Positions 4,816-34,995 of a stretch of 64,000 nt of DNA are shown piece by piece; within the stretch, counting starts at the first letter, position 1, and each line of letters opens with the position of its first letter. The notes below the pieces were generated by a model that did not search any database, was not told the DNA's origin, and was given only the letters and a program-made list of their open reading frames with translations. This DNA comes from Anaerolineaceae bacterium. GTDB taxonomy: Bacteria; Chloroflexota; Anaerolineae; Aggregatilineales; Phototrophicaceae. The translations under genes and the position numbers were made by a program. Location: NCBI GenBank assembly GCA_002699585.1, contig PABP01000021.1, positions 1-64,000 on the forward strand. The letters are read 5' to 3'.

Positions 4816-4869
4816 GTCTATTGACGCATTACATTGTGCTACCCTCATCTGGAGAGGAAGAAGACCCAA

Positions 4870-15161: not shown

Positions 15162-16478
15162 TTATGAGTACTGGACCAAAGCAGCCCAATAGCCTTCCAA
15201 TGTAGGCGTTTCTAAAGTTAGTTTACCACCCTCTGGTTGAACTTCTGATGCTTCTGAGTGCCATGCGGCCTTGCGGATGTCCATCCAGCGCACGCTCACT
15301 GGCGTATCTGCGTCGATTATCAGCCGCACATTGCCACCCTCAGGGAAGAACACGCCATATTCTACGCCGGGGTTGGCGATGCAGTAGGCTTCATTTTGAC
15401 TGCGGAATTCGATCAGGTCGAGATGCGGCTCACACTGGGTGATGGTCATTGCGTCTGTGAATTGGCGCAATGCATGGATATGCTTTTGGGCGATGTCGCT
15501 TAGGCCTAAGCCATGAGGCGGTCGGTGGAAACGGGCGGATGCCACCCCGCCGAAAACCGCCCGCCACAAGCGTTCCTGGGCATCCCGATGGGTGCCATAT
15601 TGACCCGTATTGGCCCCATAAATCTTGACCATATTCATCGGGCGCAACTGGCCGCTCTCAAGAATGCGCTGACGGACAGACTGTAAGTTTTTCCAATGGT
15701 TCAGCCCCACATTATGGTTGTTCTGTGAGACATCGACGAAGCCGTACAATTCAGGATGATCCAGCGTGGCATTGTGCTGTGGGTCAGTCAGGTCCCAGGC
15801 ATCCCACATTTCAGTGACGTATACCGTTTTCCCGGCAGCCCCCGCCTTCTGTTTAATCTGTGTTGCCCAGTATTTTCCCCACTCCGGCGATTCGTTGGTT
15901 TCATTGTCCATGCAGTACAATACATTGGGATACTTGAGCGAAATTTCCAGCAACCAATCGACAAGCTGGTGTTGATAGGGCAGGAGGACCGTGTTGTTTT
16001 CTAGTGCAGGCACGCTGCGGAAGAAGGCACTTTCGCGTCGGCCAGGGTGCGTCTCAATGACTTCTTTGAGGCCGCTTGCTTCGGCTGTATAGGCGTGGTT
16101 GTTGCGCGGATTAAGCGGATTATCTTGCCAGGGCGCACGCGCAAAATCGAAACGATCCCATACCTCGATTTGGGCGATGATGCCGCGTTCTTGTGCCAGT
16201 GAGAGTAATCGCTCAAACTTTTCCCAGTAAACCGGGTTGGGCTGCGTCAGTTCGTAACTGCCATCCCCGTTCGGCAAAAACGGCCATACATCGCCCTCGT
16301 CTCGGCTGGACATCGTACAGCGTACATAGTTCCCACCAACTGAGGCCAGCAGATCAAGATGGGCTTCTAGATTGGCTATCTGGAAGAGATTGTCTTCCAC
16401 ACTACCGCCAATAAGCAGAACCGATTTGTCGTTATAGGACCAATAAAATGGATTTTTAGAGTCAGGTTTGAGTACCAT
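15162..16478 (-). CDS. glycoside-hydrolase-like TIM-barrel protein
   Basis: This is a 438-residue protein resembling cellulase/apiosidase-like (DUF4038-type) glycoside hydrolases. A TIM-barrel region (about 1-340) contains LEAHLDLLASVGGNYVRCTM, IIAQIEVWDRFDF, VLYCMDNETNESPEWG (a likely catalytic acid/base Glu) and VYVTEMWDAW (a possible second Glu). The C-terminal 100 residues look like a small beta domain (PGVEYGVFFPEGG, ADTPVSVRWMDIR), as in collagen- or carbohydrate-binding tails of such enzymes. There is no signal peptide, so it would act inside the cell. It is divergent from the giant secreted gene, sharing a 361-bp intergenic region. The substrate is unknown. Confidence 0.65.
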   Translation of the reverse strand: MVLKPDSKNPFYWSYNDKSVLLIGGSVEDNLFQIANLEAHLDLLASVGGNYVRCTMSSRDEGDVWPFLPNGDGSYELTQPNPVYWEKFERLLSLAQERGIIAQIEVWDRFDFARAPWQDNPLNPRNNHAYTAEASGLKEVIETHPGRRESAFFRSVPALENNTVLLPYQHQLVDWLLEISLKYPNVLYCMDNETNESPEWGKYWATQIKQKAGAAGKTVYVTEMWDAWDLTDPQHNATLDHPELYGFVDVSQNNHNVGLNHWKNLQSVRQRILESGQLRPMNMVKIYGANTGQYGTHRDAQERLWRAVFGGVASARFHRPPHGLGLSDIAQKHIHALRQFTDAMTITQCEPHLDLIEFRSQNEAYCIANPGVEYGVFFPEGGNVRLIIDADTPVSVRWMDIRKAAWHSEASEVQPEGGKLTLETPTLEGYWAALVQYS

Positions 16479-16839: not shown

Positions 16840-19800
16840 ATGTTTTCAAAATGGCATAGGTTTTTTGCGTTTATTTTGATTTTCTTCGTTGTTGCTTATC
16901 CACAACAGCATACATCTTTACAGTTTGTAGCGAGCGCCCAGGAGGCGCAGCCTACATCCGAGCAGCCTGTTGCAACCGGGACACCTGAACAAGCCCCGGA
17001 TTTGCAGTCTGAACAAGACCCAACACAACCGGCTGAAACGCAACCGGCAGAGACGCCGCCACCTGATAATCCAACAGCCGAGCCTACTGAAAAGGCCACG
17101 GGTGAGCCGACAGATAGCCCAACGGATGCGCCAACAAGTGAACCCGTTGATAGTCCAACCGACGAACCTTCAGACGAGCCGACGGATGAAGCGGCAGTTG
17201 AACAACCGAGCGACCCAACGGAAGATCCAACGGATGACCCAACGGAAGATCCAACGGATGAGCCGACAGAAGCCGCCACTGATGAGGTGACAACGACACC
17301 AGAAGATGTGCCGGAGGGTACGCCGACTGAGTTGCCATCGGATACCCCTGCGCAGGAGCCGACCGATGTTCCTGCGGAAGAACCTACCGAATCAGCAGAT
17401 GCGCCCCCAGCCACATTTAAGCCTTCATTTAACGTATCGCCCCAGCAGGGTAATGCGCCGCTGACGGTCAACGTCAGTGACACAACCTCTGGCAACCCGA
17501 CCAGTTGGAGCTGGAACTTCGGCGATGGCTCCGGTGAGGCAAGTGGTTCATCTGCCTCGCATACTTATAATCAGCCCGGTACCTATACCATTACGCTCAC
17601 CGTCAGCAATGACACCAATTCCGGCCAGGCCACACGCCAGGTTGTGGTTTCAGCAGCTCAGGCCAGCATACAAGCCAATTTCGATGTTCAGTATGTGGGC
17701 GCACGGGCCGTGCCCCAGGCTGTGCAGTTTAATAACAACAGCACGGGCGACATCACCAAACATGAGTGGGATTTCAACGGTGATGGGACAGTTGATAGCA
17801 CGGCGACGTCGCCTTCTTTTACGTATAATGCGGTGGGTAACTATACCGTCAGCCTAACGGTGACGGGCAGCAATGGCCAGACATCGACGGCTGTGCGCAC
17901 AGTGAGCATTGTGGCTGGCAACGTTGCCCCGGTTGCCGCCTTCCGTGCAGAACCCGCAACTGCCCAGGCTCCAGCGACGATTTCCTTCATTGACGAAAGT
18001 CAGAATACCATTTCGCAGTGGCTGTGGACCTTCCATGATGGCAGTACAGCCAGTTCGCAGAATGCCCAGTTCACTTACAATACGCCAGGGACATATACGG
18101 TGACATTGCAGGTGACTGGTCCGGGTGGCAGCAACAGCACATCCCGTGATGTCGTCATTACTCAACCCGGCTTTTCTTATACCTGTACATTTGAACGTGC
18201 CCCTGCGACTGGGGTTTCGCCGCTTAATGTCGCTTTTGATGCGGACATCAGCATGTCGGCAGGTGGCCAGGTTACCAGCGTTACCTGGGACTTTGGCAAT
18301 GGCCAGTCGGCGAGCGGTAGCTCGGTCAGCATGACCTATTCGACTGACGAAAGCACCACGACCTACGATACGACCATGACTGCCACAATTTCCGATAGCA
18401 ACGGTGGCAGCTATAACTGTACGAAAGTGCGCGATGTCACTGTGTATCCGGCGACGGCGATAAATGCCGTGTGTAGCGTACCTGATAGTGCTCGGCCCAA
18501 TCAGTCGATAACGGCGTCCGAACGCAGCATTGGCAACAACATTACATCCTGGCAATGGACCTGGGGTGACGGTAACAGTTCCAGTGGTAATGACCACGAT
18601 GCGCGTACCCATGCCTATGCCAATGTCGGCTCATATGATGTCTATCTCCAGGTAACCAATGGCGATGGTGGCAGTGATTCTCAATACTGCGGTACGGTCG
18701 TCGTCAGCGATGGCGTCCAAGCCAGCTTCTCAGGTGTGCCTTCGGAAATTACTATCTTTGATGAATTTACGCCAAGCGATACCAGCCAGGGCGATATTGT
18801 CTCCTGGGCCTGGGACTTTGGTGATGGCACGACATCAGGAGCACAGAACCCCGGTTCCCATGCCTACACTGCTCCGGGACAATACACGGTTTCGTTGACC
18901 GTTGGCTCTGCTACGGATAGTGACACGGCAACCCGTACCGTTACAGCCCTCAACAACATTTTTGCTGATTTTGAGCCTGATGATGGCTTCGCGGTTGTTG
19001 GCCAATCCATCGGACTGATCGACGAGTCAACCGGTCCGATCACGTCATGGTCCTGGGATTGGGGCGATGGCAGTGATTCGGTTAATCGACAAAATCCGGG
19101 CTATCATGCCTATCGCCAGCCTGGGACGTATACCATTAGCCTGACCATCAATAACGACCTGGGCTTCCCTGAAACCACAACCCGTGACGTCCAGGTGGTG
19201 CCTGCTTTGAACCCGCGCGTCAGCGTGAACCCCAGCAACGCAACTGCACCCCAGACCGTTACCTTCAGTGGTCAAACCGATCAGCCGACCAGTAGCTGGC
19301 GTTGGGCATTTTCCAACGGTTGGACCGCAAGTGGCCAGTCCGTTAGCTTGACCTTTGATGAGCCAGGTACTTACACAGCCACGCTTACGGTCGCTGGTCC
19401 GGCTGGCGAAGAACGCGCACAAGGGACCGTCACCTTAACATCTGGTGGCGAAATTCGGGCGGCGTTCTCGCCGTCGCAGTGGAATGGTATTGCCCCTCTG
19501 ACGGTCTCATTCTCTGATCAAAGCGTCGGTGATGGTATTCATCAATGGGCATGGGATTTTAACGGCGATGGCAATATCGACAGCAGCATCCCGAACCCAT
19601 CTTATACATTTAACAGCGCTGGAACCTATAATGTTCGCCTGACCGTGACAGGGGATGCTGGTAGCGCCAGCGCCAGCAATTCGATCACTGTTTATGATGT
19701 GAATAGCTCATCCGCCAGCTTCTCCGTCGATTATCTATGCGATGGTGAAGTAACCTTCAGCGCCAGTAGCGGTGTTGACGTGCTGAGCTGGGACTTTGGC

Positions 19801-22800
19801 GATGGTGATGTCGGCACGGCAGAATCGGACATCAGCCACGTGTACGCCTCTGGTGACTACACTGCAACCATGATCTATGCGGGTCCCGGCGGTGCTAGCT
19901 TGGCTGTGAGCCGCAGCATCAACGTAGAAAATAATCCCTGTGATGGCAGCAGTGAACCCATCAGCGACACATTCGATCCCACACTCGGTAAGGGTGGCTG
20001 GCTGCCAGAGGGTAGCCTCGGTTTGCCTGGTCAACCCGTTGTCTGGGAAATTACCGTCGGCAATAATGGCAATGTCCCTGGGACGGGCGTTCGCGTCCGC
20101 GACCAGATTAATGATTATCTCCAGGTGATGGATGTGCGTGTGCCTGATGGCCGTGACATCACCTATACCGTCGATGGCCAGCGCGTAGACGTCATTATTC
20201 CCGTGCTTGAGCGCGACAATCCGGTTGTCTTTTACATTGACACTGTCGTCGTGACCTCACCGGAGAGTGGCCTGGTCAACAATATGGCTGCCCTGGATGG
20301 CAATGGACTGACGGCATGGGCAGAGGTAAAGGTTGCTGCTGGGTCTGAAGATGTCAATACGATTATCATTCAGGCGGAACCGCCGTCATTACCCGATGGC
20401 CCTGATCCGAACATCAGTGGATTACCTTATCCGGCAAGTATCTGGGCTAATGAACAGGCGTGCTTCACAGCCCGTTTCACCAACTCCGGGACCAATCCTG
20501 GCTTTGGGCCTTACCTTCGCGTGTTGCTGCCACCAGAACTTATTCTGGATAGTGCTGATTTCATCAACACGCCCCAGTCTATCATCAACGTCGGCACGTT
20601 TACCGGCCCAGGCAATCAGCTAACAGATCCCATTTCTGAGGATAATGTCATTGGCACTACGGGCTGGCAGTTCTTTGTGATTCGGTATCCGATTGGCTCT
20701 GTCGTGACAGGCAACCCGCCGCTCGATATGGAAATGTGCCTCTCAGTCGATGAGAGCATCGCGCTCATTGGCATAACCTATCCTTTCGAAATTATTCCCG
20801 GCTATGAATTTGGTGATACGGCGACTGGCGACAATGGCCCGATTGTCGATACAGATGACCCAGGAAAAGATGGGGCTGTCGAGCTTAAGTTGGTGGAATT
20901 CGAAAAGGACAATTCCACACCTGAAGACGAACGTCCGCCCGGACCAGTCTGGGAGTACGAATATTATCTGACAACAACATTGGCCCCCGGCCAGCGCCTG
21001 ACAGACATTGCTATCGTCGATACGCTGGATGCCGATTGGCAGTTTACGTCGTTTGATGGCATCAGCGGCACCTGTAATGCCGTCCAGGCGGGGGCGCCAT
21101 CAACGCCTGCGGCACCACCACCACCTGTCGGTGGGGGCACAATCACGGTCAACTTCAGTGAGATCGAAAACACTGGCTCGAATACCTGTACAGTCGTCAT
21201 CACTTACAGCGGCTACATCCTCGATATTCTGACCGAGGACGGTACGATTGATCCTGACGAAGAAGGCATCGTTAATGTGGCGACCTTCGACAGCTCATGG
21301 ACAGGCAACGATGACTTACAGGACATCACTGTACCAGAGTTGAGCGATACCAATACTGTTCTGGTCGATAATATGGTCTTCCAGAAGAGCGTCTCGCCAG
21401 GTACAAGTGTACCAGAAACAGACCTGGCCTATACAATCAATTTCCAGATTACCCAGTTTGATAGTATCTCGGCTGCGGTCATCACCGATACGATACCAAA
21501 TGGCATCAGCACCGATTATGATTCTTATAGGGTTAGAATTGGTGGTTCCACTTATCCTGTTCCAAATACGGCAATCACTCATATCAACAATGCTGATGGC
21601 ACGATTACTGTTTCGTTTGACCTCGAAGATGCAACGGACATCCCCATACCGCTGCCGAGTTCTGGCGATGGGCAAATTCAGTACGATGGCGTCATTGATG
21701 TGTACTATCGGGATAGTGCTGGCAATCCAAACACAGACGAACCGATTCGTGCATCGGATAGCATGACGAATACCGTCACTGGGGACTTCGTTCTCTCAAG
21801 TGGTATGACCCAGTCCAATGATTCCAGCGCGACGGTGGACATCATCCCTGTGACCATTTCCAAGCAGACGTTAACAACTATCAATCCGCCGGAAAATGCG
21901 GCTGGTTACTCGCACGGTGAAGATGTGACTTTCCGCCTGACGATGAATATCCCCTCAGGCGATACGCGCGGTATTGTCTTCCGCGACTTCTTGCCGCTCC
22001 CGGTCTTCGATATTGATGACCCTGACCTGGGCTTTGAAGTACCTGCTGGACCTGGTCCCTTCACAGTGCCCGTCCAGAATACGAGCAATGTGTGTTATCA
22101 GCAGTTTAACCTGGGCGATAACGACACCAATTGTGGTATCACCTGGGGGCCGGATGCGACCATCTTCCCGCAGATTGAAAGCTTCAATCTCGATGGCGCG
22201 ACCAACAGCCTGGAAATCGTGTTTGAGGACATCAATACCAGTGGTGCCCAGACGATCCAGATTGATCTGACGGTTGCCGTCATTGACAATCCCTTTGCAG
22301 ATGGGTTGTTCTTATCGAACCAGTTTGAATCTGAGGTACAGAATACCCCCGGCACGATTCTGCCACTGGACGCGATTTCTTACCTGAACCTGAGCGCTCC
22401 ACACCTGGAAATCATAAAAGGCGTGGTTGATAGCTCCAATAGCAGCGTGGTGATTAGTCCTGCGGCAACAGGCGGTGCAGTGGACGCTGATTCCGATGGC
22501 GATGCTTCTGGCTTTGATGCCAACGATCAGGTGACGTACGCCATCACCGTAACCAACACGGGTGGGGCACCCGCATATGACGTCCTTGTTGGTGATGATA
22601 CCTCGTCGCTGACGGGCCTGGAGAACTGCGTTGTCGACACTGTAACGACAGAAACAGGCACGTCACTGACCTATACGGGCAGCTTGCCTGCTATCACACT
22701 TACCAGCCCGATTGCGCCATCCGGGCAGGCGGTCGTTCGCCTAACGTGCGAAACGACGGACATCATCAACCCGAATCAGAACATCACAAATACAGCGACA

Positions 22801-25800
22801 GCCGATTACAACGGCTTGCCCATCCTTGACTATACATACAATTCGGCGCCTATCGCCTATCCACAAGTGAGCGACACCGCTGAGATCACCATGCGCGATG
22901 TCGAAATCGCTAAATCTGTTGCTCCGACGAGTGCGACCATTGGTGAGACGGTGACTTATACCGTGACCGTCACCCTGCCCGGTGGTGAAATTGACAACTT
23001 GCAGGTGCAGGATGTGCTGCCCGCGGGTATGGCATTTGTTGATTGCACCAGCGTGACGCCCTCCGGTAGTACTGCGGTTGTGACCAATCTTCCTGGCGGG
23101 TTCGCAGATGCCTGCAACGCACCAATCAATCCGACCATTGCTGGCAGTGGCACGACCATTACTTTCGATCTTGGCGATGTTTCAGTGAGTTCACCGACAG
23201 GCAATGCCGATGTTCGCACGCTGGACATCGTCTACACAGCGGTTGTACTTGATGTCGGTACGACTGAAGGGCTTGGCGGTACAACAACCGATCTAACCAA
23301 TACAGTAACGCAAAGCAGCGATGATACTGACGATCACACAGATCAGGCGACGCTGAGCGTCATTGAGCCAGAACTGACGATCTCCAAAGAGGCGACGCCG
23401 GATACAGGTGACGCTGGCGATACCATCGACTATGTCATTACTGTCGAGCACACGGCCAACAGCAATGCCGATGCCTACGATCTGGTCGTGACGGATGTGA
23501 TCCCGGCAGGCATGACCTTCGACGCATTCGGTACCATCAGCCCAACGCCATCCGTAGCTGCTTCCTATAATGGCACGGATACGATTACGGTTCGTTTTGA
23601 TGCCCTGACCACCAGCCAGACAGCGACAATCCGCTACAGCGTCACGCTGGATAACGATGTCGAAGCTGAGCAGCAGCTTACCAATGATGTGGGCCTGTCC
23701 TATGACTCGCATCCAGATGATGACCTAACGGATGTTTCGCCCTATACCGACCCCACCGACCGTGAGCGCGATTACACGGATACGACCGACGACACGGTGA
23801 CGATTGTGCCGTTCCTGCTGGATAAGACCGTCACCAGCACCAGCGAAGTCGCGACGACAGGTCTCGTCAACGTCGCGATTGGTGAGCGCGTAACCTATAC
23901 CGTTACCGTCGATGTGCCGGAAGGTGTCCATGATAACGTGGTGCTGGTCGATACACTTGACAGTGGCCTTGCCTTCGCGGATTTGAGTGCAACGGGTGGC
24001 ATCAGCAGCATCAACTTCAATGGGGTTACGTCCAGCCGCACGACGACCCAAATCCTCAACGACGCTGATACCAGTGTCACCCTCAGTGGGCGGCAAGCGA
24101 CGTTCAACTTTGGCACGTTAACCAACAATGCAGCCCTGACTGATGGCGTGGACCGGACATCGGTTACGCTGGTTTACGAAGTGGTTGTGCTGGATTCTAG
24201 CGCGAACAATCGGGGCAATACGCGCAATAACAGCGCCAATTTGACCTATGATAATGGCGGAGATGTGACTGATTCGGCCCCCAATGTGCGCATTGTGGAG
24301 CCAACTCTCCAGATCAATAAGACCGCTAACCCGGCTACCGGCGATTCTGGCGATGCGATTACCTTTACGATGGTGATTTCGCATACAACAGCGAGCAATG
24401 CAACTGCATTCGATATTGCCCTGGAAGATGTCATCCCAACAGGCATGACCTATGTCGCCGCATCGCTGACGAATACGGGTGGTGTCGCTCCTGCTACCTT
24501 GACCGAGAGCGGCGGCACGATCACAGCCACCTGGGATAGCCTGACGACAGCCCAAACCTCAACTTTAGAGTTCCAGGCGACGTTGGATGGCACCGTTTCA
24601 CCCGGTTCGACCATCACCAATACAGCTGACATCACCGACTATGATTCATTGGCTGGGGATAATATCGACGATGGTTTGTCGCCATACATCCCTGGCAATG
24701 AAGACAGCGAACGTGATTACACCACCAGTGATACGGCGGATGTCGAGATCGCTAACCTGACGATGGATAAGACCATCACCGCGACCAGCGAAACCGCCAC
24801 CACAGGTAATGACGTTGCCATTGGTGAAGTTATTTCTTATCGATTGGCCTTTGGTGTGCCGGAAGGTGTGACAACCAATGTCACGCTTATGGATACACTC
24901 GATGCGGGCCTAGCCTTCGCAGACATGACTAACGCAACAATCAATTTCCCCAGTGGTGTGACGTCCAGTGTGGCCACGCCAACTATCTTGAGTGCGGCCA
25001 ATACCAGCGTTGGCAACTGTAATGGGGGTGGTTGCTCGGTCACATTCGACTTTGGCACCCTGACTAACAGCAATACCAGCGGCACCATCAGCCGCCCGGA
25101 AATTGTCATCACCTATGATGTCGTTGTGCTCGATATCGCGGGCAATACGCGCGGCACAGATCGTGGCAATGCCGCGATGCTGGACTATGACACAGCGCCA
25201 GTAGATGGCATCAGCCCCGTGTCACCGCCGCAAGTTACTATCGTTGAACCGGGCCTGCAAGTAGTCAAGACGGCTAGCCCAACGACTGGCGATGCTGGCG
25301 ATGAAATCCTGTTTACATTGGTCATTTCACATATAGTGGCTAGTGATGCCACAGCATTCGATATTGCCCTCGAAGATGTCATTCCGGCAGGTGTAACCTA
25401 TGTGGCTGCATCCCTGACGAATACGGCGGGTATCGCTCCGGCTACCCTGGCTGAGAGCGGTGGCACGATCACAGCTACCTGGGACAGCCTGACGACAGCG
25501 CAGTCCTCAACCATCACGTTCCGAGTGACATTGGATGACGCGACTGAACTTGATCAGGTCATCACCAATACCGCTGACATCACCGACTATGACACCCTCG
25601 TCGCTGACGATGTCACCGATGGTCTATCAACGCATGTCAACGACGGGACCGATGGTGAGCGTGACTACAATACGAATGACACCGCCAATGTGACCATCAC
25701 AAATGGCAATACCATCACCAAATCGGTGACGAGTACCAGCCACACAGGTACGGATGCCAGTGGTGACAGTCAACATGACTTGACTATTGGTGAAGAAGTT

Positions 25801-28800
25801 AGTTATGAACTGGTCGTCACATTCCGTGAAGGCACCAGCGATAACGTCCGTGTAGAAGATGTCTACCCGGCAGGCGTCGCCTTTGACTTTATCAGCGCCA
25901 GCGTGACCGCTGTTGGCGGTAACCTCACGGGCATCACCAATGGCGCATTGCCGACAGGTGGTAACGGGACCGCAGGCACACCGCTGTACTGGGACTTCGG
26001 AACGGTTGTCAATACAGCCGACAATGTCTCAAATACGGATGATCAGATTACCATCACAATCGTGCTGCGTGTCGATGACAACGTGGCCAACGATGGTACG
26101 GGAACCAACGATAAGAATCAGTCCAACACAGCGACGGTTCGTTATGAGGATTACCAGACCAACGCCGAATCCGACAGCGATACAGCTACGATTGATGTGG
26201 TCGAGCCCGAACTCTCACTGACCAAGACGCGCGTCACCACTCCGGGTCCGTTTGAAGCAGGCGATACGATCGAGTATCGGATTACGCTGGAGCATACGGC
26301 CCAATCAACAGCCAATGCCTACGACATTGTCGTCACCGATACCTTACCGACAGAGGTGAGCTTAGTGGGCCTCGTGGGGGCCAGCACAACCTGTGCTAGC
26401 GTCACACCGAGCTTCACAGCGCCGACGCTGACCTTAACGATTCCATCGCTGAGCCTAGCGACGGACAGTTGCGACATCGTCTATGAAGTGACGGTCGGCA
26501 ACGATGTGGAACCAAGTTCGACGTACACCAACACGGCAGGCAGCAGCTACAGCACGCTGCCCGGTACGCCAACCGATGATCGTACCAAGAACACGAGCGA
26601 TGATACGGCCACGTTTGATACACCCAACCCGACTATCACCAAGGCCGCGACCAGTACTAGCCATGCCGATACCGGCACAGGCGCAGATAGCGACTTCGAT
26701 TTGGCCATTGGTGAGCAGGTCACCTACACGCTGACCGTCACCATGCCGGAAGGCACGACGGACAACGTCCGCGTCATCGACCTGCTGCCGCAGACAGGCG
26801 TTTCCTTCGAATACATCAGCTCGCAGATTGCGACCATCGGCACAGGCATCACGCTGGGTAGTGGCTCAGTCGGTACAGCCGGAAGCTACGCAGCAGGTGC
26901 GGAAACGGTCACCTGGACGCTGGGCACCGTCACCAACCCACCCGGTAATGGCGATACCCTGACTTTCGAAATTTTGGCACGTGTCAATGATGTCGCCGCC
27001 AACGTGGGTCTTGTCACAGACCAGGATGTCAATCTGGTGAATACGGGCCGCCTGATCTACGAAGACAGCACCGGAACCGACCAGACACTCAATGACACCG
27101 AGACAGTCGATCTGGTCGAGCCTGAACTCTCGCTAGCCAAGACACGTCTCACGACACCTGGACCGTTTGAAGCAGGCGATACCATCCAGTATCGTATTAC
27201 TCTGGATCATACGGCACAGTCAACAACCAATGCCTATGACATTGTCGTCACCGATACCTTGCCAACGGCAGGTATGGGTTTCGTGGGCATTGTAGGCGGT
27301 AGCACGACCTGTGCCAGCGTCACACCGAGCTTCACATCGCCGACGATTACGTTCAGCATCCCGTCGATCACATTGGCCTCAAGCAGTTGCGACATCGTCT
27401 ACGAAGTGACTGTCGGCAATGACGTCGAGCCGAGTTCCAGCTACACGAACACGGCGGGTAGCAGCTACAGCACGCTGCCCGGTACGCCAACGGATGATCG
27501 CACCAAGAACACGAGCAATGATACGGCCACGTTCCAGACGGCCAGCCCAACGATCACCAAGTCAGTGACCAGTACCAGCCATGCTGATACGGGCACAGGC
27601 GCAGATAGCGACTTCGATCTGGCAATCGGTGAAGAAGTGACCTACACGCTGACGGTCACCCTGCCAGAGGGCACGACAGACAACGTTCGCGTCATTGACT
27701 TGTTGCCGCAGACAGGCGTTTCCTTCGAATACATCAGCTCGGAGATTGCGACTGTGGGCACGGGCATCACCCTGGGAAGTGGATCAGTCGGCACAGCCGG
27801 AACGTATGCAGCAGGTGCGGAAACGGTCACCTGGACGCTAGGCACCGTCACCAACCCGCCCGGTAATGGCGATACCCTGACTTTCGAAATCGTGGCCCGT
27901 GTCAATGATGTGGCCGCCAACGTGGGTCTCGTCACAGGTCAGGATGTCAATCTGGTCAATACGGGTCGCCTGATCTACGAAGACAGTACAGGTGCGGATC
28001 AGACACTCAACGATACCGATACGGTCGACTTGGTTGAGCCGGAACTCTCGCTGACAAAGGCGCGCGTCACCACGCCAAATCCGTTCGACGCCGGAGATAG
28101 CATCCAATACACGCTGACACTCAGCCACACGGCCCAATCAACGGCCAATGCTTATGACATCGTCGTAACCGATGTGTTCCCAACCACACTGACCAGTTTC
28201 GCCAGTGTAGATGGTGGCACTTGCACAGTTAGCGCGACCAACACATCGACAGCAGGACAGGTTGGCTTTACGGTTGCTCAACTCAACCTGGGTGCGACCT
28301 GTACCATCACTTACAGCATCACTGTGGGTGTTGATGTCGAGCCGGGGACGACCTATACCAACACGGCATCGGCTGTTTACAGCAGCCTACCCGGTACGCC
28401 TGCGGATGATCGTACGAACACCACACCAAACGATACGGCTACGTTCACCACACCCGGACCGAGTATCACGAAAGCGGTCTTCGGCACATCTGATGCGGGT
28501 AACCAGAACTATGCCATCGGCGAACTGGTGACATACCACATCATCGTGACACTGACCGAAGGCACCACGCGCGGCGTCACCGTCAGCGATGCACCACCAT
28601 CCGGCACAGCGACCCTCACGCCCATCAGCATGAGCGTCCTGGGTGCGGTCGGCGGAACCGATACAGCCATCACGACTACAGGCGCTAACCTGAGTGCTAC
28701 CGATACCGCCGCGCCGTTGTCCATCAACTTCGGTGATGTGACGAATCCGGCGGGCGGCACCAACCAGATTGTTCTGGAAGTCATCGCCCAGGTGACGGAT

Positions 28801-31800
28801 GATGTCATCAACACAGGTCTGGTTGGCAATCAGGATACCAACGTGACCAATACGGCTACGCTGGCTTACACCGATGGCAACGATGCACCGCAGACTGAAA
28901 ACGATACGGCCCAAATCAACTTTATTGAGCCAGAACTGACGCTGGCGAAAGATAACCAGCCGACAGGTGTCCCGGTTGCGGATGGCGGTGATACGCTGCA
29001 ATTCCGTATTACCTTGACACACACCGCCAATTCACTGGCCGATGCCCATAACATCGTCGTAACAGATGTGCTGCCCACAGCTGGAATGAGTTACAACCCG
29101 GCGACGGGTATCGTTGGGGCCAGCACAACCTGCGTTGGTGTGACGTCCAGCTTCGCATCACCGAACATCACTTTCAATGTGCCGACGCTGGCCCTGGCGA
29201 CGAATAGCTGTGACATCGTCTATAGCGTGACAGTCGGCACGGACGTCCAGCCAAGTTCGACGTATACCAACGTGGCGGATGCAGATTACGACTCATCGAC
29301 TACGGTTGATGATCGTACCAAGTCGACCAATAGCGACGATGCTGAGTTCACGACACCCGGTCCGCAGTTGGTCAAGCGCATTGTGAGCACATCACTGGCG
29401 GATACTACCGATGGTCTCGATCTCGACCCGGATGTAGCCATTGGCGAAATCGTCACCTTCGAACTGGAAGCGACGATGGCCGAAGGGACCAGCAACAACG
29501 TATCGCTGGTCGATACCTTGCCAGCGACCTTCACGGTTGTGGATTCGGAAGTTTATGCCATTGGTAGCAACATCAGCGGTTCATCATTGACCGTGGGCAC
29601 TGCCGGAACGGTTGCAGGCAATCAGGTGACGTTCAACTTCGGCAACATCGTCAATATGCCGGATGGTGTTACAACGGCTGCTGATCGCATCGTTGTGCGC
29701 ATTGATGCGCGTCTGACAGATGATCCATCCAACGCTGATGGCCAGACCAAGACCAACACGGGCCAGCTCAACTACACCGATAGCACCAACGCGCCACAGT
29801 CCCTATCCGATACGGACGATATTGATGTGGTTGAACCTGCGCTTGTCATGACAAAAGCCTTCAGTGAAGCTCAAGTCGTGCGTGGCTCCATGCTCAACAT
29901 GGTGCTGACTGTTACCAACAATGGCACGGCCCCGGCTTATGACATCGTGGTAAACGACATCTTTGCTGGTACCAACCCCACAGGCGACATTGACCTGAGC
30001 AAGGTCCGTATCAATAGCGTTACGGTGACATCTGAACCAAGTGGCGCCAATACCAATACCAGCAGCAGCGTGACGGGCACCTATGGCACCAGCCAGTTGA
30101 TCGCCAATATCGCGCGTTTGATGCCAACAGAGACAGTCGTCTTGACAGTCAATATCACCATTGATCCAACAGCGACGCCTGTGCCGTTGCTGGGTACGGA
30201 TGCGCTCGACAACACAGCCACCGTTGACTATGATTCCACGCCGGATGATGCCCAGCACAACGATGCCTCGGATCGTGATTACGACACGAATGCCAACGAC
30301 ACGCTGGAAATCATCATACCGACCATCACTGTCACCAAGGTCGATGATGTTGACCCTGTCAATGCGGGTGGTATCGTCATCTACACCATCACCGTCGAAA
30401 ATACAGGCACGCCAGATGTTCCGGCTAACGATGTCATCGTCACGGATACGCTGCCGACGCCAACCGATGGTGTAACAGTCGTGTTGGTGACGCCTAGCCA
30501 GGGGACGTGTGGACCTGTTGTGGGGGGGCAATTAACTTGCTCGTTGGGCACCCTTCTCAGTGGTGCGAATGCAACCATCACCGTCCGTATGCGCGTTGAT
30601 GCCGCAAATCGTCCGCAGCAGATGACCAACAACGTCAATGTCACCACACGTCAGGGTAACGATGAGGATGCTGACGAAACAACCGACATCGTTGATCAGA
30701 TTGATCTGGAATTGGACAAGGTCGTCAGTCAAACGCAGCCAGCCGAAGGTGATACCATCACCTACACGCTGACCGCCAGCAACAACGGTCCTTCGGATGC
30801 GACCAATGTGGTTGTAACGGATACCTTGCCCAGTGGCTTGACCTATGTCCAGTTCATTCCGAACACGTTGCCATGTGTCTTCACAGATCCGACGCTGACC
30901 TGCACCTTCCCGACCCTGGATGCACTCGACTTTGTAGAAGTCGGCATCCAGGCCACCGTCGATACGGGCGCAGCCGCCCTGACGCAGCCCATCGTGAATG
31001 CTGCGGCCGTCATCGCTGATGAAAGCGGCGGCGCAGGTTATCCTGATGAAACGGACAACACCAACAACGAAGATACGGCCCCGATCACAGTTACAACGGT
31101 TGACCTGGCTGTTGTGAAGTCAGTCACGCCGACTGCACCGTCAGAAGGCGACATCGTGACCTATACCATCCAGGTGACGAACAATGGTCCCGCCAATGCG
31201 ACTGGCGTGGTCGTGACCGATACGCTCCCGGCTGGCCTGACCTACGTCAGCAATAACAGCGCCAGTACCGGGACCACATATGCGCCAGCAACAGGGGAAT
31301 GGGCTATTGGCGATCTGACAATTGGAGCCAGCATCCAACTGGAAATCAGGGCGCGTGTCAACGCCGGTACAGCCGGAACGCAAATTACCAATACGGCCTC
31401 GCTGACCGATGTCGATCAGACGGACCGTGACCCCACCAATAACAGTGACGACGCCGTTATCGTAGTCGATGGCCTCGATCTGGAAGTCATCAAGACGGTC
31501 AATAACACTATCCCGCAGGAAGGGGATACGATCACATACAGCATTCTGCTGCGTAATTTGGGTGCGGCCAACGGAACAGGCATCACTGTAACCGATGACC
31601 TCAATGGGGTAACAGGTATCACCTACGTCAGCCATACGGCACCAGGCAGCACCAGCTACAACCCGGCAACAGGCCTATGGACGGTTGGCAGCCTGAACGC
31701 TAACCAATCGCTGACGCTGACCGTGGTTGCAACTGTGGATGCGGGCGCTGCTGCCCTGACGCAGCCCATCATCAACAATGCCGCTGTGTCCGCTGTCGAT

Positions 31801-34800
31801 CAGACAGATGTCAATCCAGACAATGATGACGATGATGCGGCTATCAATGTGCTGCCGCTGGACCTGGCTGTGACCAAAGTGGTTGATAACAACACGCCGG
31901 TTCCGGGTGAGCAGATTACCTACACGATTACCGTCATCAACAATGGCCCAGCCAATGCAACCGGTGTGGTCATCAGCGATGCACTCGATGCCAACTTGAC
32001 CTTCATCTCGGCTGCGCCGATAGGTGTATATGACAGCGTCACGGGCCTGTGGACGATTGGTAACCTGAATGCAGGCGTTAACCAGACGCTGACGATTGTC
32101 GCCCAGGTAAACGGTGCGGCAACAACGGGCACAGTCATCCCGAATGTGGCTGCAGTCCAATCGGTTGACCAGACAGACAGCGATCCGACCAATGACCAGG
32201 ATGACGCTCCGGCGACCGTCGGCGGTCTGGATCTGGTGGTCACCAAAGTCGTGGATGATGCCACCCCGCGTGAGGGCGATACGATCAACTACACGATCAC
32301 CGTCGAAAACCTGGGTGCTGCGAATGCTACCGGCGTCATCATCGAAGACATCGTCCCGGCTGGCGTGACTTTTGTGTCATCCAGTGCGACAGTGGGCAGC
32401 TACAACAGTGTCAGCAACTTGTGGACTGTCGGTCCGCTGGCTGTGACACAAACAGCCTCGCTGATCATCACCGCGACGGTTGATAATGGTACATCCGGCA
32501 CGACCATCGACAACATCGCAACACTCAACAGTGTCGATCAGCCGGATGCCGACCCCGACAACAACCAGGATAACGCTAGCATCACCGTCGAAGCGGTTGA
32601 TCTGGCGATTACCAAAGTCGTGGACAACGCGGGGCCATCCCAGGGCGATACGGTGACCTATACGATCACCGTCACGAACCTAGGCGAAGGCGATGCCACA
32701 GGCGTCGTCGTGACTGAAGACTTACCAGCCGATGGTGTCAGCTTGTCGCTTCTGAACAACACGCCATCCCAGGGCAGCTTCACGCTGGCCCCACCGAACA
32801 GTACCTGGGCAGTGGGTGATCTGGCAGCCAATGCCAGCGCGATCCTCACCCTCACCGTGCGTGTGGAAGTCCCGAATGGTCTGATCGTGAATACGGTCAC
32901 CGTGACAGGCGATCAGCCTGACCCGGATACCAGCAACAACGAGGATCAGGCAGCAATCGCGCTCAATGGTACCGATCTGGCTGTGACCAAGGTCGTCGAT
33001 AACGATGTGCCGTTCCATGGAGACCAGATTGTCTACACCATCGTAGCCAGCAACCTGGGGCCGAACGATGCCACTGGCGTCTATGTCGATGACATCCTGC
33101 CTGCGGGTCTAGACTATGTCTCTGATGACAGCGGCGGTAGCTTCAACAGCACAACGGGCGACTGGACCATTGGCGACCTGGCCAGTGGTGCCAGTGCTAC
33201 GCTCAACATCACCGTGACTGTCATCGATACGAGCGGATCGATTACCAACACTGCGGAAATCATTGGCGATCAGCTCGATCCGAACCTGGACAACAATACC
33301 GATGTCGAAGAAATCATCGTCGGCGGGGCGGACCTCAGCCTGACGAAAGTTCGGTTGGTGAGCGGCACGAAGACGGGTGATCTGGTTACTTATGTCCTGA
33401 CGGTCGTCAATGATGGCCCGAATCCAGTCAGTGGCGTGGAAGTTACCGACTACATGCCAGAACCGATTACTTACGAATCGGCGACACCATCCAAGGGCAC
33501 GGTTAGTTCGCCACCGGATGCACCCGTTATCTGGTCAGTAGGTGACCTGGCTATTGGTGAGTTTGCCACCCTGACGATCAACGGGCGTATCAATGATCGC
33601 TATGGCAGTACGACCAATGTCGCAGAAGTGACTGACGCCAGCCTGCCTGACATCGATTCCACACCGGGCAACCGCGCCGGTGGGGAAGATGACATGGCCA
33701 GCACCACCGGGCCAGTGGTCAATGTGCCACCGCCCGCAGGTGCCTCAGAAGAAGAAATGCCGGAATCCGTATCCGTACCGGGTATTGGTGGCGCTTTTGG
33801 CCAACCCGTATGCAGCTATAGCTGTGTGTCCTACCAGTTCTATCACACTAACCGGGACGGCAACTGGGAAATCTATCGCCTGGGTGATATCCCTGGCCAA
33901 CCCGATGCCAACCCGAACCTGACCCAGGGTACAGGCGAAGGTATCGATGACATCGCACCAAGCCGCTCGCCCAATGGCGAATGGATCGCTTTTGCCTCAA
34001 ATCGTGATGGTAACTGGGAAATCTACGTGGGTTCTGTCGATGGCACCGAGCAACGGCGCGTCACCTACAACAACATCGCCATTGATACTGATCCCGTCTG
34101 GGGGCCAACCAACGCGGTCGTTTACGAGAGCAGCCGTGATGGTAACTGGAACCTCTACATGATCGATATGACAACCGGTACTGAAGTTCGTCTGACGGAT
34201 GACGATGCCAGTGACCTGAATGCCTCCTGGGCACCTTCAGGCGACCGCATTATCTTCCAGAGTGACCGCAGCGGCACATGGCAAATCTACGAACTGAATC
34301 TGACGACCGATACGCTGCGCGTTCTCAGTGATGGCAATGGCCAGGACTTCGATCCGCAGTACTCACCCGATGGTCAGCAGATCGTGTTCCGCAGCTACCG
34401 GGGCGATGCCGATGACACCAGCGTCCTATATGTCATGAATCGGAATGGCGGCAATGTTCGTGCCATCAGTGACAATGCTGGCAATGCAACCAATGCCTCC
34501 TGGTCACCGGATCGTAACTTGATTGCTTATCAGTCAGACATCAATGGCGACCTGGACGTCTTCGTCCACGACCTGACTACGGGTCAGACGCGACAAGTCA
34601 CCGATAACGACATTGATGACTACGCGCCGACCTGGTTGTGCAGCACGACCCACATCCTGTTCACATCGGACATCGATGGCGACCCGAATATCTACGAAGT
34701 GGACGCCGCGCCGATGCAAGCCGACCCGGTCAGTGTCGAAGATAAGGATGAGGTGATTCAGCGTACCGATAGCACCTTCGATGACATCTATCCTGAAGGC

Positions 34801-34995
34801 GCACCGACTGAGGAAAATGCCAGCCGTGAAGGTCGCTTGCCGGATGTTGGCAGTCTCAACTACGGCACACAAACTGACTATCTGCCAGTGGATACCAGCG
34901 TCACCCGTGTGGACACCTCATCACAGCGTGGCACTGTCTGGCAGCCCATCAATGGGTGTGGATGTGAGGATTGCCTCAGCGAGCAGGATGAATAG
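16840..34995 (+). CDS. giant 6051-residue secreted PKD / DUF11 / beta-propeller protein
   Basis: This single open frame encodes an extracellular, probably filamentous or adhesive protein. Residues 1-34 form a signal peptide (basic start, FFAFILIFFVVAY, cleavage near ASAQ). Residues 35-190 are an acidic Thr/Pro/Glu/Asp stalk. Residues 193-1034 hold ten PKD domains (WDFGDG, PGTYTVTL motifs). Residues 1035-2175 are divergent beta-domains of the DUF11 type. Residues 2176-4331 are seven A/B supermodules. Residues 4332-4620 are two more single repeats, and 4621-5617 are eight canonical DUF11 repeats. Residues 5665-5958 form a seven-bladed PD40/TolB-like propeller. The tail ends in GCGCEDCLSEQDE. 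No LPXTG, S-layer-homology or C-terminal membrane helix is seen, so attachment is unexplained. The ribosome site is weak (CGGAACGGGG). Function is inferred from domains only: surface structure, adhesion or matrix. Confidence 0.9.
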   Translation: MFSKWHRFFAFILIFFVVAYPQQHTSLQFVASAQEAQPTSEQPVATGTPEQAPDLQSEQDPTQPAETQPAETPPPDNPTAEPTEKATGEPTDSPTDAPTSEPVDSPTDEPSDEPTDEAAVEQPSDPTEDPTDDPTEDPTDEPTEAATDEVTTTPEDVPEGTPTELPSDTPAQEPTDVPAEEPTESADAPPATFKPSFNVSPQQGNAPLTVNVSDTTSGNPTSWSWNFGDGSGEASGSSASHTYNQPGTYTITLTVSNDTNSGQATRQVVVSAAQASIQANFDVQYVGARAVPQAVQFNNNSTGDITKHEWDFNGDGTVDSTATSPSFTYNAVGNYTVSLTVTGSNGQTSTAVRTVSIVAGNVAPVAAFRAEPATAQAPATISFIDESQNTISQWLWTFHDGSTASSQNAQFTYNTPGTYTVTLQVTGPGGSNSTSRDVVITQPGFSYTCTFERAPATGVSPLNVAFDADISMSAGGQVTSVTWDFGNGQSASGSSVSMTYSTDESTTTYDTTMTATISDSNGGSYNCTKVRDVTVYPATAINAVCSVPDSARPNQSITASERSIGNNITSWQWTWGDGNSSSGNDHDARTHAYANVGSYDVYLQVTNGDGGSDSQYCGTVVVSDGVQASFSGVPSEITIFDEFTPSDTSQGDIVSWAWDFGDGTTSGAQNPGSHAYTAPGQYTVSLTVGSATDSDTATRTVTALNNIFADFEPDDGFAVVGQSIGLIDESTGPITSWSWDWGDGSDSVNRQNPGYHAYRQPGTYTISLTINNDLGFPETTTRDVQVVPALNPRVSVNPSNATAPQTVTFSGQTDQPTSSWRWAFSNGWTASGQSVSLTFDEPGTYTATLTVAGPAGEERAQGTVTLTSGGEIRAAFSPSQWNGIAPLTVSFSDQSVGDGIHQWAWDFNGDGNIDSSIPNPSYTFNSAGTYNVRLTVTGDAGSASASNSITVYDVNSSSASFSVDYLCDGEVTFSASSGVDVLSWDFGDGDVGTAESDISHVYASGDYTATMIYAGPGGASLAVSRSINVENNPCDGSSEPISDTFDPTLGKGGWLPEGSLGLPGQPVVWEITVGNNGNVPGTGVRVRDQINDYLQVMDVRVPDGRDITYTVDGQRVDVIIPVLERDNPVVFYIDTVVVTSPESGLVNNMAALDGNGLTAWAEVKVAAGSEDVNTIIIQAEPPSLPDGPDPNISGLPYPASIWANEQACFTARFTNSGTNPGFGPYLRVLLPPELILDSADFINTPQSIINVGTFTGPGNQLTDPISEDNVIGTTGWQFFVIRYPIGSVVTGNPPLDMEMCLSVDESIALIGITYPFEIIPGYEFGDTATGDNGPIVDTDDPGKDGAVELKLVEFEKDNSTPEDERPPGPVWEYEYYLTTTLAPGQRLTDIAIVDTLDADWQFTSFDGISGTCNAVQAGAPSTPAAPPPPVGGGTITVNFSEIENTGSNTCTVVITYSGYILDILTEDGTIDPDEEGIVNVATFDSSWTGNDDLQDITVPELSDTNTVLVDNMVFQKSVSPGTSVPETDLAYTINFQITQFDSISAAVITDTIPNGISTDYDSYRVRIGGSTYPVPNTAITHINNADGTITVSFDLEDATDIPIPLPSSGDGQIQYDGVIDVYYRDSAGNPNTDEPIRASDSMTNTVTGDFVLSSGMTQSNDSSATVDIIPVTISKQTLTTINPPENAAGYSHGEDVTFRLTMNIPSGDTRGIVFRDFLPLPVFDIDDPDLGFEVPAGPGPFTVPVQNTSNVCYQQFNLGDNDTNCGITWGPDATIFPQIESFNLDGATNSLEIVFEDINTSGAQTIQIDLTVAVIDNPFADGLFLSNQFESEVQNTPGTILPLDAISYLNLSAPHLEIIKGVVDSSNSSVVISPAATGGAVDADSDGDASGFDANDQVTYAITVTNTGGAPAYDVLVGDDTSSLTGLENCVVDTVTTETGTSLTYTGSLPAITLTSPIAPSGQAVVRLTCETTDIINPNQNITNTATADYNGLPILDYTYNSAPIAYPQVSDTAEITMRDVEIAKSVAPTSATIGETVTYTVTVTLPGGEIDNLQVQDVLPAGMAFVDCTSVTPSGSTAVVTNLPGGFADACNAPINPTIAGSGTTITFDLGDVSVSSPTGNADVRTLDIVYTAVVLDVGTTEGLGGTTTDLTNTVTQSSDDTDDHTDQATLSVIEPELTISKEATPDTGDAGDTIDYVITVEHTANSNADAYDLVVTDVIPAGMTFDAFGTISPTPSVAASYNGTDTITVRFDALTTSQTATIRYSVTLDNDVEAEQQLTNDVGLSYDSHPDDDLTDVSPYTDPTDRERDYTDTTDDTVTIVPFLLDKTVTSTSEVATTGLVNVAIGERVTYTVTVDVPEGVHDNVVLVDTLDSGLAFADLSATGGISSINFNGVTSSRTTTQILNDADTSVTLSGRQATFNFGTLTNNAALTDGVDRTSVTLVYEVVVLDSSANNRGNTRNNSANLTYDNGGDVTDSAPNVRIVEPTLQINKTANPATGDSGDAITFTMVISHTTASNATAFDIALEDVIPTGMTYVAASLTNTGGVAPATLTESGGTITATWDSLTTAQTSTLEFQATLDGTVSPGSTITNTADITDYDSLAGDNIDDGLSPYIPGNEDSERDYTTSDTADVEIANLTMDKTITATSETATTGNDVAIGEVISYRLAFGVPEGVTTNVTLMDTLDAGLAFADMTNATINFPSGVTSSVATPTILSAANTSVGNCNGGGCSVTFDFGTLTNSNTSGTISRPEIVITYDVVVLDIAGNTRGTDRGNAAMLDYDTAPVDGISPVSPPQVTIVEPGLQVVKTASPTTGDAGDEILFTLVISHIVASDATAFDIALEDVIPAGVTYVAASLTNTAGIAPATLAESGGTITATWDSLTTAQSSTITFRVTLDDATELDQVITNTADITDYDTLVADDVTDGLSTHVNDGTDGERDYNTNDTANVTITNGNTITKSVTSTSHTGTDASGDSQHDLTIGEEVSYELVVTFREGTSDNVRVEDVYPAGVAFDFISASVTAVGGNLTGITNGALPTGGNGTAGTPLYWDFGTVVNTADNVSNTDDQITITIVLRVDDNVANDGTGTNDKNQSNTATVRYEDYQTNAESDSDTATIDVVEPELSLTKTRVTTPGPFEAGDTIEYRITLEHTAQSTANAYDIVVTDTLPTEVSLVGLVGASTTCASVTPSFTAPTLTLTIPSLSLATDSCDIVYEVTVGNDVEPSSTYTNTAGSSYSTLPGTPTDDRTKNTSDDTATFDTPNPTITKAATSTSHADTGTGADSDFDLAIGEQVTYTLTVTMPEGTTDNVRVIDLLPQTGVSFEYISSQIATIGTGITLGSGSVGTAGSYAAGAETVTWTLGTVTNPPGNGDTLTFEILARVNDVAANVGLVTDQDVNLVNTGRLIYEDSTGTDQTLNDTETVDLVEPELSLAKTRLTTPGPFEAGDTIQYRITLDHTAQSTTNAYDIVVTDTLPTAGMGFVGIVGGSTTCASVTPSFTSPTITFSIPSITLASSSCDIVYEVTVGNDVEPSSSYTNTAGSSYSTLPGTPTDDRTKNTSNDTATFQTASPTITKSVTSTSHADTGTGADSDFDLAIGEEVTYTLTVTLPEGTTDNVRVIDLLPQTGVSFEYISSEIATVGTGITLGSGSVGTAGTYAAGAETVTWTLGTVTNPPGNGDTLTFEIVARVNDVAANVGLVTGQDVNLVNTGRLIYEDSTGADQTLNDTDTVDLVEPELSLTKARVTTPNPFDAGDSIQYTLTLSHTAQSTANAYDIVVTDVFPTTLTSFASVDGGTCTVSATNTSTAGQVGFTVAQLNLGATCTITYSITVGVDVEPGTTYTNTASAVYSSLPGTPADDRTNTTPNDTATFTTPGPSITKAVFGTSDAGNQNYAIGELVTYHIIVTLTEGTTRGVTVSDAPPSGTATLTPISMSVLGAVGGTDTAITTTGANLSATDTAAPLSINFGDVTNPAGGTNQIVLEVIAQVTDDVINTGLVGNQDTNVTNTATLAYTDGNDAPQTENDTAQINFIEPELTLAKDNQPTGVPVADGGDTLQFRITLTHTANSLADAHNIVVTDVLPTAGMSYNPATGIVGASTTCVGVTSSFASPNITFNVPTLALATNSCDIVYSVTVGTDVQPSSTYTNVADADYDSSTTVDDRTKSTNSDDAEFTTPGPQLVKRIVSTSLADTTDGLDLDPDVAIGEIVTFELEATMAEGTSNNVSLVDTLPATFTVVDSEVYAIGSNISGSSLTVGTAGTVAGNQVTFNFGNIVNMPDGVTTAADRIVVRIDARLTDDPSNADGQTKTNTGQLNYTDSTNAPQSLSDTDDIDVVEPALVMTKAFSEAQVVRGSMLNMVLTVTNNGTAPAYDIVVNDIFAGTNPTGDIDLSKVRINSVTVTSEPSGANTNTSSSVTGTYGTSQLIANIARLMPTETVVLTVNITIDPTATPVPLLGTDALDNTATVDYDSTPDDAQHNDASDRDYDTNANDTLEIIIPTITVTKVDDVDPVNAGGIVIYTITVENTGTPDVPANDVIVTDTLPTPTDGVTVVLVTPSQGTCGPVVGGQLTCSLGTLLSGANATITVRMRVDAANRPQQMTNNVNVTTRQGNDEDADETTDIVDQIDLELDKVVSQTQPAEGDTITYTLTASNNGPSDATNVVVTDTLPSGLTYVQFIPNTLPCVFTDPTLTCTFPTLDALDFVEVGIQATVDTGAAALTQPIVNAAAVIADESGGAGYPDETDNTNNEDTAPITVTTVDLAVVKSVTPTAPSEGDIVTYTIQVTNNGPANATGVVVTDTLPAGLTYVSNNSASTGTTYAPATGEWAIGDLTIGASIQLEIRARVNAGTAGTQITNTASLTDVDQTDRDPTNNSDDAVIVVDGLDLEVIKTVNNTIPQEGDTITYSILLRNLGAANGTGITVTDDLNGVTGITYVSHTAPGSTSYNPATGLWTVGSLNANQSLTLTVVATVDAGAAALTQPIINNAAVSAVDQTDVNPDNDDDDAAINVLPLDLAVTKVVDNNTPVPGEQITYTITVINNGPANATGVVISDALDANLTFISAAPIGVYDSVTGLWTIGNLNAGVNQTLTIVAQVNGAATTGTVIPNVAAVQSVDQTDSDPTNDQDDAPATVGGLDLVVTKVVDDATPREGDTINYTITVENLGAANATGVIIEDIVPAGVTFVSSSATVGSYNSVSNLWTVGPLAVTQTASLIITATVDNGTSGTTIDNIATLNSVDQPDADPDNNQDNASITVEAVDLAITKVVDNAGPSQGDTVTYTITVTNLGEGDATGVVVTEDLPADGVSLSLLNNTPSQGSFTLAPPNSTWAVGDLAANASAILTLTVRVEVPNGLIVNTVTVTGDQPDPDTSNNEDQAAIALNGTDLAVTKVVDNDVPFHGDQIVYTIVASNLGPNDATGVYVDDILPAGLDYVSDDSGGSFNSTTGDWTIGDLASGASATLNITVTVIDTSGSITNTAEIIGDQLDPNLDNNTDVEEIIVGGADLSLTKVRLVSGTKTGDLVTYVLTVVNDGPNPVSGVEVTDYMPEPITYESATPSKGTVSSPPDAPVIWSVGDLAIGEFATLTINGRINDRYGSTTNVAEVTDASLPDIDSTPGNRAGGEDDMASTTGPVVNVPPPAGASEEEMPESVSVPGIGGAFGQPVCSYSCVSYQFYHTNRDGNWEIYRLGDIPGQPDANPNLTQGTGEGIDDIAPSRSPNGEWIAFASNRDGNWEIYVGSVDGTEQRRVTYNNIAIDTDPVWGPTNAVVYESSRDGNWNLYMIDMTTGTEVRLTDDDASDLNASWAPSGDRIIFQSDRSGTWQIYELNLTTDTLRVLSDGNGQDFDPQYSPDGQQIVFRSYRGDADDTSVLYVMNRNGGNVRAISDNAGNATNASWSPDRNLIAYQSDINGDLDVFVHDLTTGQTRQVTDNDIDDYAPTWLCSTTHILFTSDIDGDPNIYEVDAAPMQADPVSVEDKDEVIQRTDSTFDDIYPEGAPTEENASREGRLPDVGSLNYGTQTDYLPVDTSVTRVDTSSQRGTVWQPINGCGCEDCLSEQDE
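17416..19941 (+). repeat. array of ten PKD domains
   Basis: Ten Ig-like PKD units of about 80-90 residues lie within the giant gene. Each has a W-x-(F/W)-G/N-DG core (for example WSWNFGDG, WAWDFGDG, WSWDWGDG) and an H/F-x-Y...PGTYTVTLTV strand. Units four and five carry Cys pairs. PKD domains typically act as rigid extracellular spacers or in protein and carbohydrate contacts. The units are well diverged from each other at the DNA level, so this array is old. Confidence 0.88.
23365..29832 (+). repeat. seven two-domain A/B supermodules
   Basis: Within the giant gene an A domain (VEPELxLxK ... AGDxIxYxIxxxHTAxSxAxAYDIVVTD) alternates with a B domain (TKxxTSTSxAxTG ... AIGExVTYxLxVxxPEGTTDNV) seven times. 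A domains start at 23365, 24298, 25246, 26203, 27118, 28036 and 28927. A last A-like domain starts at 29833 and closes the series. The spacings are 933, 948, 957, 915, 918, 891 and 906 bp. Both domains are DUF11-like beta-sandwiches. The regular period shows that growth happened by copying A+B together. Confidence 0.85.
26203..28035 (+). repeat. recent in-frame tandem duplication, 915 + 918 bp
   Basis: Supermodules 26203-27117 and 27118-28035 are close to identical over long runs. Both encode TLGTVTNPPGNGDTLTFEI and SSYSTLPGTPTDDRTKNTS. At DNA level 26890-26921 and 27808-27839 are the same 32 bases. Neighbouring supermodules share only the fold pattern, so this pair arose recently or is kept alike by gene conversion. 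Confidence 0.9.
30700..33690 (+). repeat. eight canonical DUF11 (SdrD-type B) repeats
   Basis: Eight units of about 120-133 residues begin at 30700, 31099, 31474, 31858, 32227, 32596, 32971 and 33328. Each opens with D-L-x-(V/L)-x-K-V and GDxITYTIxVxNxGPxxATGV, continues V-(T/S)-D-x-LPxGLTYVS and x-W-(T/A)-(I/V)-GxLxxG, and ends in a D-x-x-xxDPxNNxDxA acidic loop. The acidic loops look suited to Ca2+, as in staphylococcal Sdr repeats. That is an inference. Confidence 0.85.
33832..34713 (+). repeat. seven PD40/TolB-like propeller blades
   Basis: Seven blade signatures of the type S-x-R-D-G-x-W-(E/N/Q)-(I/L)-Y occur in a row: NRDGNWEIYRL, NRDGNWEIYVG, SRDGNWNLYMI, DRSGTWQIYEL, a diverged DTSVLYVMN, DINGDLDVFVH and DIDGDPNIYEV. 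Each is preceded by P-x-W-S/A-P-(D/S)-G-type turns. Seven blades would close one beta-propeller. A C-x3-C pair lies immediately before it (33811-33825). Confidence 0.85.

Follow-up and report, generated by a model that had tools for sequence, protein, structure and literature searches.

What kind of protein is encoded by an open reading frame of 18.2 kb in a chloroflexote, and does its union of PKD, DUF11 and PD40 domains represent a singular construct or one member of a wider family of surface giants? The question arises from the window analyzed here, a stretch of 64,000 nucleotides of an Anaerolineaceae bacterium, in which a single open frame (16840..34995, +) runs from an ATG start to a TAG end, with the exact bounds of the ORF, and codes for 6,051 aa. 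An earlier, sequence-only reading of the window had taken the product for a surface protein joining the three domain kinds in an order of which it knew no described example, and had named an assembly artefact as one way in which its view would fail.

The giant gene and its N-terminal part

The frame contains 1 stop, versus 88-396 in the other five frames. Near-identical repeats are absent from the ORF: the identity of direct repeats does not exceed 83% (over 173 nt), nor does that of whole supermodules (see below) exceed 75% in nucleotides. Copies differ mostly at the third position of codons, as in supermodules 5 and 6 (52/41/132). Such divergence and third-position excess indicate that the array is old, selected and coding, rather than collapsed or duplicated in assembly; combined with the same domain order in four other assemblies, they rule out an assembly artefact, so that the uninterrupted frame of 6051 residues stands as first described. 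As regards a possible foreign island, the GC content of the gene is 0.551 versus 0.519 in the remainder, and its GC3 is 0.605 versus 0.545-0.596 in four neighbours. No other DUF11 giant is encoded in the genome of the window. Among the neighbouring genes, which by eye include katG and genes for a LysR regulator and an RlmN-like protein, no evident link to the giant and no conserved operon was found; adjoining it lies a gene (15162-16478, -) for a 438-aa protein that looks by eye like a glycoside hydrolase, with no Pfam match at E 0.001.

The Pfam scan of the giant, which the sequence-only reading had proposed as a check, returns PKD (10 stretches), DUF11 and PD40 in the expected order. At the N-terminus, a short run of hydrophobic residues precedes an A-x-A site (VASA/Q), which by sequence inspection delimits a signal peptide of residues 1-33 (16840..16938, +); its 19-residue hydropathy is 1.59, versus ~3.0-3.5 in most of the sister giants that have an N-terminal transmembrane (TM) helix, and comparable cleavable signals occur in three of the orthologs discussed below (L129, L130 and L171). 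There follow an acidic stalk rich in Pro and Thr, defined by composition (residues 34-195; 16939..17424, +), and ten PKD domains (residues 204-1020; 17449..19899, +), recognized by Pfam as PF18911/PF00801 and counted again as ten with an own-repeat profile, that is, a profile built from the repeats of the window protein itself and used to count its domains. All three features had been read correctly from the letters, as had the want of an obvious anchor: by sequence inspection, Pfam and NCBIfam we found no LPXTG-type signal, C-terminal TM or wall-binding domain, and the chain, which starts with its A-x-A signal peptide, ends in ...NGCGCEDCLSEQDE without TM and without the sorting signal and charged tail of LPXTG-type adhesins. 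The genome of the window encodes three sortases.

The DUF11 shaft and its kinship with grappling-hook proteins

Past the PKD block, DUF11-family domains extend to residue 5603; the own-repeat profile detects 29 DUF11-like domains (1064-5603), and about two more are likely in the gaps. Divergent DUF11-type domains, found with the same profile, lie ahead of the supermodules (residues 1060-2018; 20017..22893, +) and include most of the junction block (residues 1693-2027; 21916..22920, +); then come the A/B supermodules, eight in number and made of isopeptide domains (residues 2019-4493; 22894..30318, +), and nine tandem canonical DUF11, or CLIPPER, domains (residues 4494-5610; 30319..33669, +). 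The A modules match the isopeptide-forming family TIGR04226 of NCBIfam, while for the B modules, and likewise for the C-terminal array, the match is TIGR01451/DUF11. Since A and B modules are both caught by the DUF11-like profile, they do not constitute a third domain kind. The supermodules of the sequence-only reading therefore exist, but they number eight instead of seven and are pairs of DUF11-type isopeptide domains; the DUF11 repeats after them, previously given as eight, are nine.

The AF2 model of one A/B pair has a pLDDT of 88.3 and is nearly all beta; the fold search with the supermodule matched integrins and antigen I/II C-domains with modest TM-scores, which support only an Ig/CnaA-like fold. 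In alignment A2, encompassing 24 supermodules (eight each from the window protein, L129 and L130), no more than 13 columns are fully conserved; these include all six triad positions, the Lys, Asp and Asn of K7, D53, N140 and of K173, D211, N276. Lysine is rare in the window protein (0.8% of residues), and 28 of the 41 lysines between residues 1040 and 5640 occupy the place in the first strand where a Lys-Asn bond would require them, the triad Lys being present in 27 of the 29 detected domains. Isopeptide bonds in DUF11 domains have been demonstrated by crystallography, and the domain has been renamed CLIPPER; with these stalk domains (PDB 9ifr) the window protein shares the Pfam family, the Lys-Asp-Asn triad, the tandem copies and the setting in a long secreted protein (PMC12617251). 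The kinship holds at the domain level only, for the window protein alternates A and B types eight times and then ends in a propeller. We infer from the conserved triads that each shaft domain would be locked by a predicted Lys-Asn isopeptide bond.

The same order of PKD, DUF11 and propeller is present in four further full-length proteins of 4,774-4,799 aa, namely L129 (4,799 aa), L130 (4,776 aa; JAFLCH010000005.1, UWPOB_ANAER3), L171 (4,774 aa) and L172 (4,776 aa), which is very close to L130. Each of these orthologs has 7-8 detected PKD domains, one junction block, exactly eight supermodules, DUF11 domains, the head and the Cys tail. L129 is collinear with the window protein over ~4,500 columns at 34% identity, and the latter has about eight extra DUF11 domains ahead of its head. 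A search for other proteins of this order, also proposed by the sequence-only reading, has thus been answered, and the singularity that it implied is ruled out by these orthologs and by a head family widespread in the order. Our literature search for the combination of PKD, hook-type shaft and propeller found no describing paper.

Grappling-hook proteins are used by some bacteria to grab other cells. One of them, GhpA of Aureispira sp. CCB-QB1, was reportedly described by Lien et al. in 2024 with the structures PDB 9flp and others. Searching the PDB with the supermodule profile, we retrieved GhpA (9flp, 5,898 aa) at E 2.4e-60, with the best stretch, 827-1128, scoring 184 bits; on this profile, the window protein's own ordinary DUF11 domains of the tandem kind score no more than 22-50 bits, and so the match is of the supermodule type rather than of DUF11 in general. 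Moreover, residues 511-795 of GhpA score 94 bits on the junction profile with filters off (at most 10.8 in 200 shuffles), and their BLASTP search places window residues 1693-1990 first (E 7e-20), the next place having 2e-6. Window residues 1693-2322 match GhpA in order; hence two neighbouring blocks, junction and adjoining supermodule, are common to both proteins in the same sequence. GhpA was not returned by PDB searches at default filters with A3, A4, A5 and a 4,992-aa piece, perhaps because of how HMMER's filters treat a long biased sequence, nor by default searches with the PKD and propeller parts. It is likewise a giant single chain, but has one strong supermodule match versus eight in the window protein; it comes from a bacteroidote and is reported to be secreted by the type IX system (PMC11205867).

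Within the Chloroflexota, GhlA of Litorilinea aerophila (WP_141610714.1) is a 6,596-aa DUF11 protein of 180-nm hooked polar filaments with a three-stranded stem, for which 49 DUF11 domains and a predicted N-terminal TM without signal peptide have been reported (PMC13319060). A frame of exactly 6,596 aa in genome G227 is very probably GhlA; it has two A/B supermodules ahead of its tandem array, and neither PKD, head nor (by profile) junction block was found in it. The window protein thus resembles GhlA in its phylum, its long DUF11 array and the supermodules that precede it, but differs in having a cleaved signal peptide in place of the N-terminal TM, PKD domains, a propeller and fewer DUF11 domains. 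As in hook proteins, a chain of more than ~5,000 aa consists mostly of DUF11-type Ig domains (6,051 aa, at least 29 domains), and its shaft core shows homology beyond generic DUF11, with the two GhpA blocks in order and the supermodules of the probable GhlA. Other Anaerolineae DUF11 giants (in G175, G264, G275 and G318) align to the window protein from about residue 1195, just past the PKD block. The window protein thus has the look of a shaft of the hook type that has been placed within another family of surface proteins, behind its PKD base and ahead of its propeller tip. Neither this homology nor the isopeptide build had been noticed in the sequence-only reading.

The propeller head, its tail and its family

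The C-terminal head (residues 5657-6002; 33808..34845, +) is defined by PD40 matches, alignment A1, an AF2 model, fold search and a head profile. Structure prediction, suggested at the outset and carried out for this propeller and the A/B pair mentioned above, gave a pLDDT of 88.8 and a pTM of 0.88 for the head; its strand pattern, like its sequence repeats, is consistent with seven blades, with closure by the N- and C-terminal strands, and the fold search matched TolB and S9-peptidase propellers. Together with Pfam, these data sustain the single seven-bladed PD40 propeller originally described. The head shares PD40 repeats and propeller fold with TolB, but the N-terminal domain of TolB is absent, and this propeller, which has a cap Cys and an EENASR end of its own, sits at the tip of a giant; on TIGR02800 (TolB) it scores 196 bits, below the cut-off of 343, with only the propeller part matching. 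The signature that emerges from alignment A1 is a Cys cap, a YHT motif and the C-terminal EENASR end, and the window head scores 547-555 bits on the head profile, within the Aggregatilineales head family that we define by these features.

The last 49 residues (6003-6051; 34846..34992, +) form a tail with a conserved Cys, homologous to the linker between the heads of two-headed relatives (L029-L032), in which the tail-like segment leads into the second head ('GxQTDYL...VTPxD...NGC' in L029). The Cys tail of the sequence-only reading is therefore real, but a separate, conserved Cys-rich domain is ruled out, given that only one Cys is common to relatives and that the segment corresponds to an inter-head linker. 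Among 60 single-headed proteins, 19 have all three of long tail, second cap Cys and tail Cys, 31 have none, and 10 are mixed, mostly distant members. The co-occurrence of these features (Fisher p 3e-14 for the two pure classes) has to be read as a correlation along a tree, for the proteins are kin and not independent events. From this covariation, a disulfide probably links the tail Cys with the additional Cys of the N-terminal propeller cap.

With a threshold of E <= 1e-60, the head family was detected in 69 genomes among the 200 related ones covered, and is missing from G001, the only one of the same genus (one contig); close relatives in public records are named Aggregatilineales, Anaerolineae or Chloroflexi. 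The head is nearly always the last domain of a larger protein, while the stalks beneath it differ, consisting of PKD plus unnamed 'GGxM' repeats, of SdrD_B domains or of DUF11. Some head proteins begin with a TM helix that is not cleaved off (L038, L044) or with a lipobox (VGAC in L047), which, with the head at the opposite terminus, places the latter at the free end. These anchored sisters support the C-terminal propeller tip of the long fibre proposed earlier, the fibre itself being what we infer.

Other features of the family deserve mention. The 'GGxM' Ig-like repeats between PKD and head (middle parts of L038, L044 and L045) match no Pfam family, with a sub-threshold hit of bMG6 only. L170:2168-15910 encodes a 4,580-aa head protein with junction block, three supermodules, DUF11 and SdrD_B (18 stretches) and without PKD, a case of shaft swap. 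Upstream of sister giants of the TM type (L038, L040, L063, L087) lies a gene set for cNMP-binding proteins, a PrsW-type protease that itself carries a cNMP-binding domain, and an ECF sigma factor; its first gene, encoding a protein of ~200 aa without Pfam match, is found also at L035 and L043. Head genes in records labelled Rhodococcus, Bacteroidetes and Pleurocapsa (L071, L083, L087, L103) all lie on MAG contigs, and the labels look like those of mis-binned or misnamed chloroflexotes.

Possible roles of the giant

On balance we lean, by a little, towards a secreted and very long fibre of the grappling-hook type, with the PKD block as base and the propeller as tip. The chain would be exported by Sec and displayed at the surface, with the N-terminal stalk and PKD block facing the cell; isopeptide-locked domains would make the shaft resistant to pulling and proteases, several chains would associate into a bundle over the length of the DUF11 shaft, as do three in GhlA and seven in GhpA, and the propellers, gathered at the free tip, would bind a surface, a polymer or a partner cell. 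The length of an Ig domain is about 4-5 nm, and we estimate a fibre of ~150-200 nm from ~40 domains, a length comparable to the 180 nm of GhlA filaments. Assembly into filaments, binding of a ligand and anchoring are putative for the window protein. More speculatively, this chloroflexote family might build hook-type filaments with a tip of clustered propellers and an isopeptide-locked shaft of eight supermodules, the shaft of a hook protein having been fused into a separate PKD/propeller family to yield a new capture appendage. In the literature that we found, grappling hooks are known by experiment from two bacteria, Aureispira and Litorilinea (2026); our results extend the occurrence of a related shaft to further Chloroflexota, where surface giants exchange it as a module, and define a conserved tip domain of ~345 residues that is small enough to be expressed and tested for its ligand. 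The constant eight supermodules and invariant triads lead to testable predictions on fibre design and force resistance.

Against the hook-type reading count the lack of PKD and propeller in GhlA and its predicted N-terminal TM in place of a cleaved signal peptide, the four default searches that did not retrieve GhpA, and the fact that DUF11 stalks are common in ordinary adhesins. The giant could conceivably be a single-chain fibrillar adhesin, in which PKD and DUF11 would form a monomeric stalk holding a binding propeller with no hook filament; we regard this as doubtful, though worth keeping in view. DUF11 and PKD domains are the stalks of many adhesins (PMC12617251), the stalks of head relatives are so different (PKD with 'GGxM', SdrD_B) that the stalk may be a spacer only, and the junction block is absent from GhlA by profile. 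However, the homology to GhpA is specific to the two-block core and goes beyond DUF11 generally, and a mere spacer would have no need of the eight supermodules kept across orthologs.

It is unlikely that the protein is instead a released matrix or S-layer-like scaffold, shed to cross-link matrix or aggregates, with its propeller binding polymers. Sorting signal, TM and wall-binding domain were not found in it even though the genome encodes sortases, and archaeal DUF11 proteins stabilise aggregates (as cited in PMC12617251); but sister proteins with the same head possess N-terminal membrane anchors, and a single head in 6,000 residues is more in keeping with a tip than with a matrix. Very improbable, in our judgement, is a surface sensor whose propeller would bind an outside signal reported by the giant stalk via a regulatory system. 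The gene set with cNMP-binding proteins, PrsW-type protease and ECF sigma factor does precede several TM-anchored sister giants, but the window gene has no such neighbourhood, the ORFs flanking L129 and L130 also fall outside the clusters, and cleavable signal peptides, instead of TM helices, begin the window protein and its orthologs.

Several Anaerolineae DUF11 giants, namely the probable GhlA (L159) and those of G264 (L166) and G177 (L162), terminate in a short hydrophobic-Leu-Pro motif with a basic residue after it (...RIYLPHVERR and ...KILLPLVNR are examples), which is possibly a sorting signature and is absent from the window protein. The DUF11 giants of G275 and G318 end in a sortase domain (PF04203) within the same chain (L168:6731-7630 and L164:5491-6390, -).
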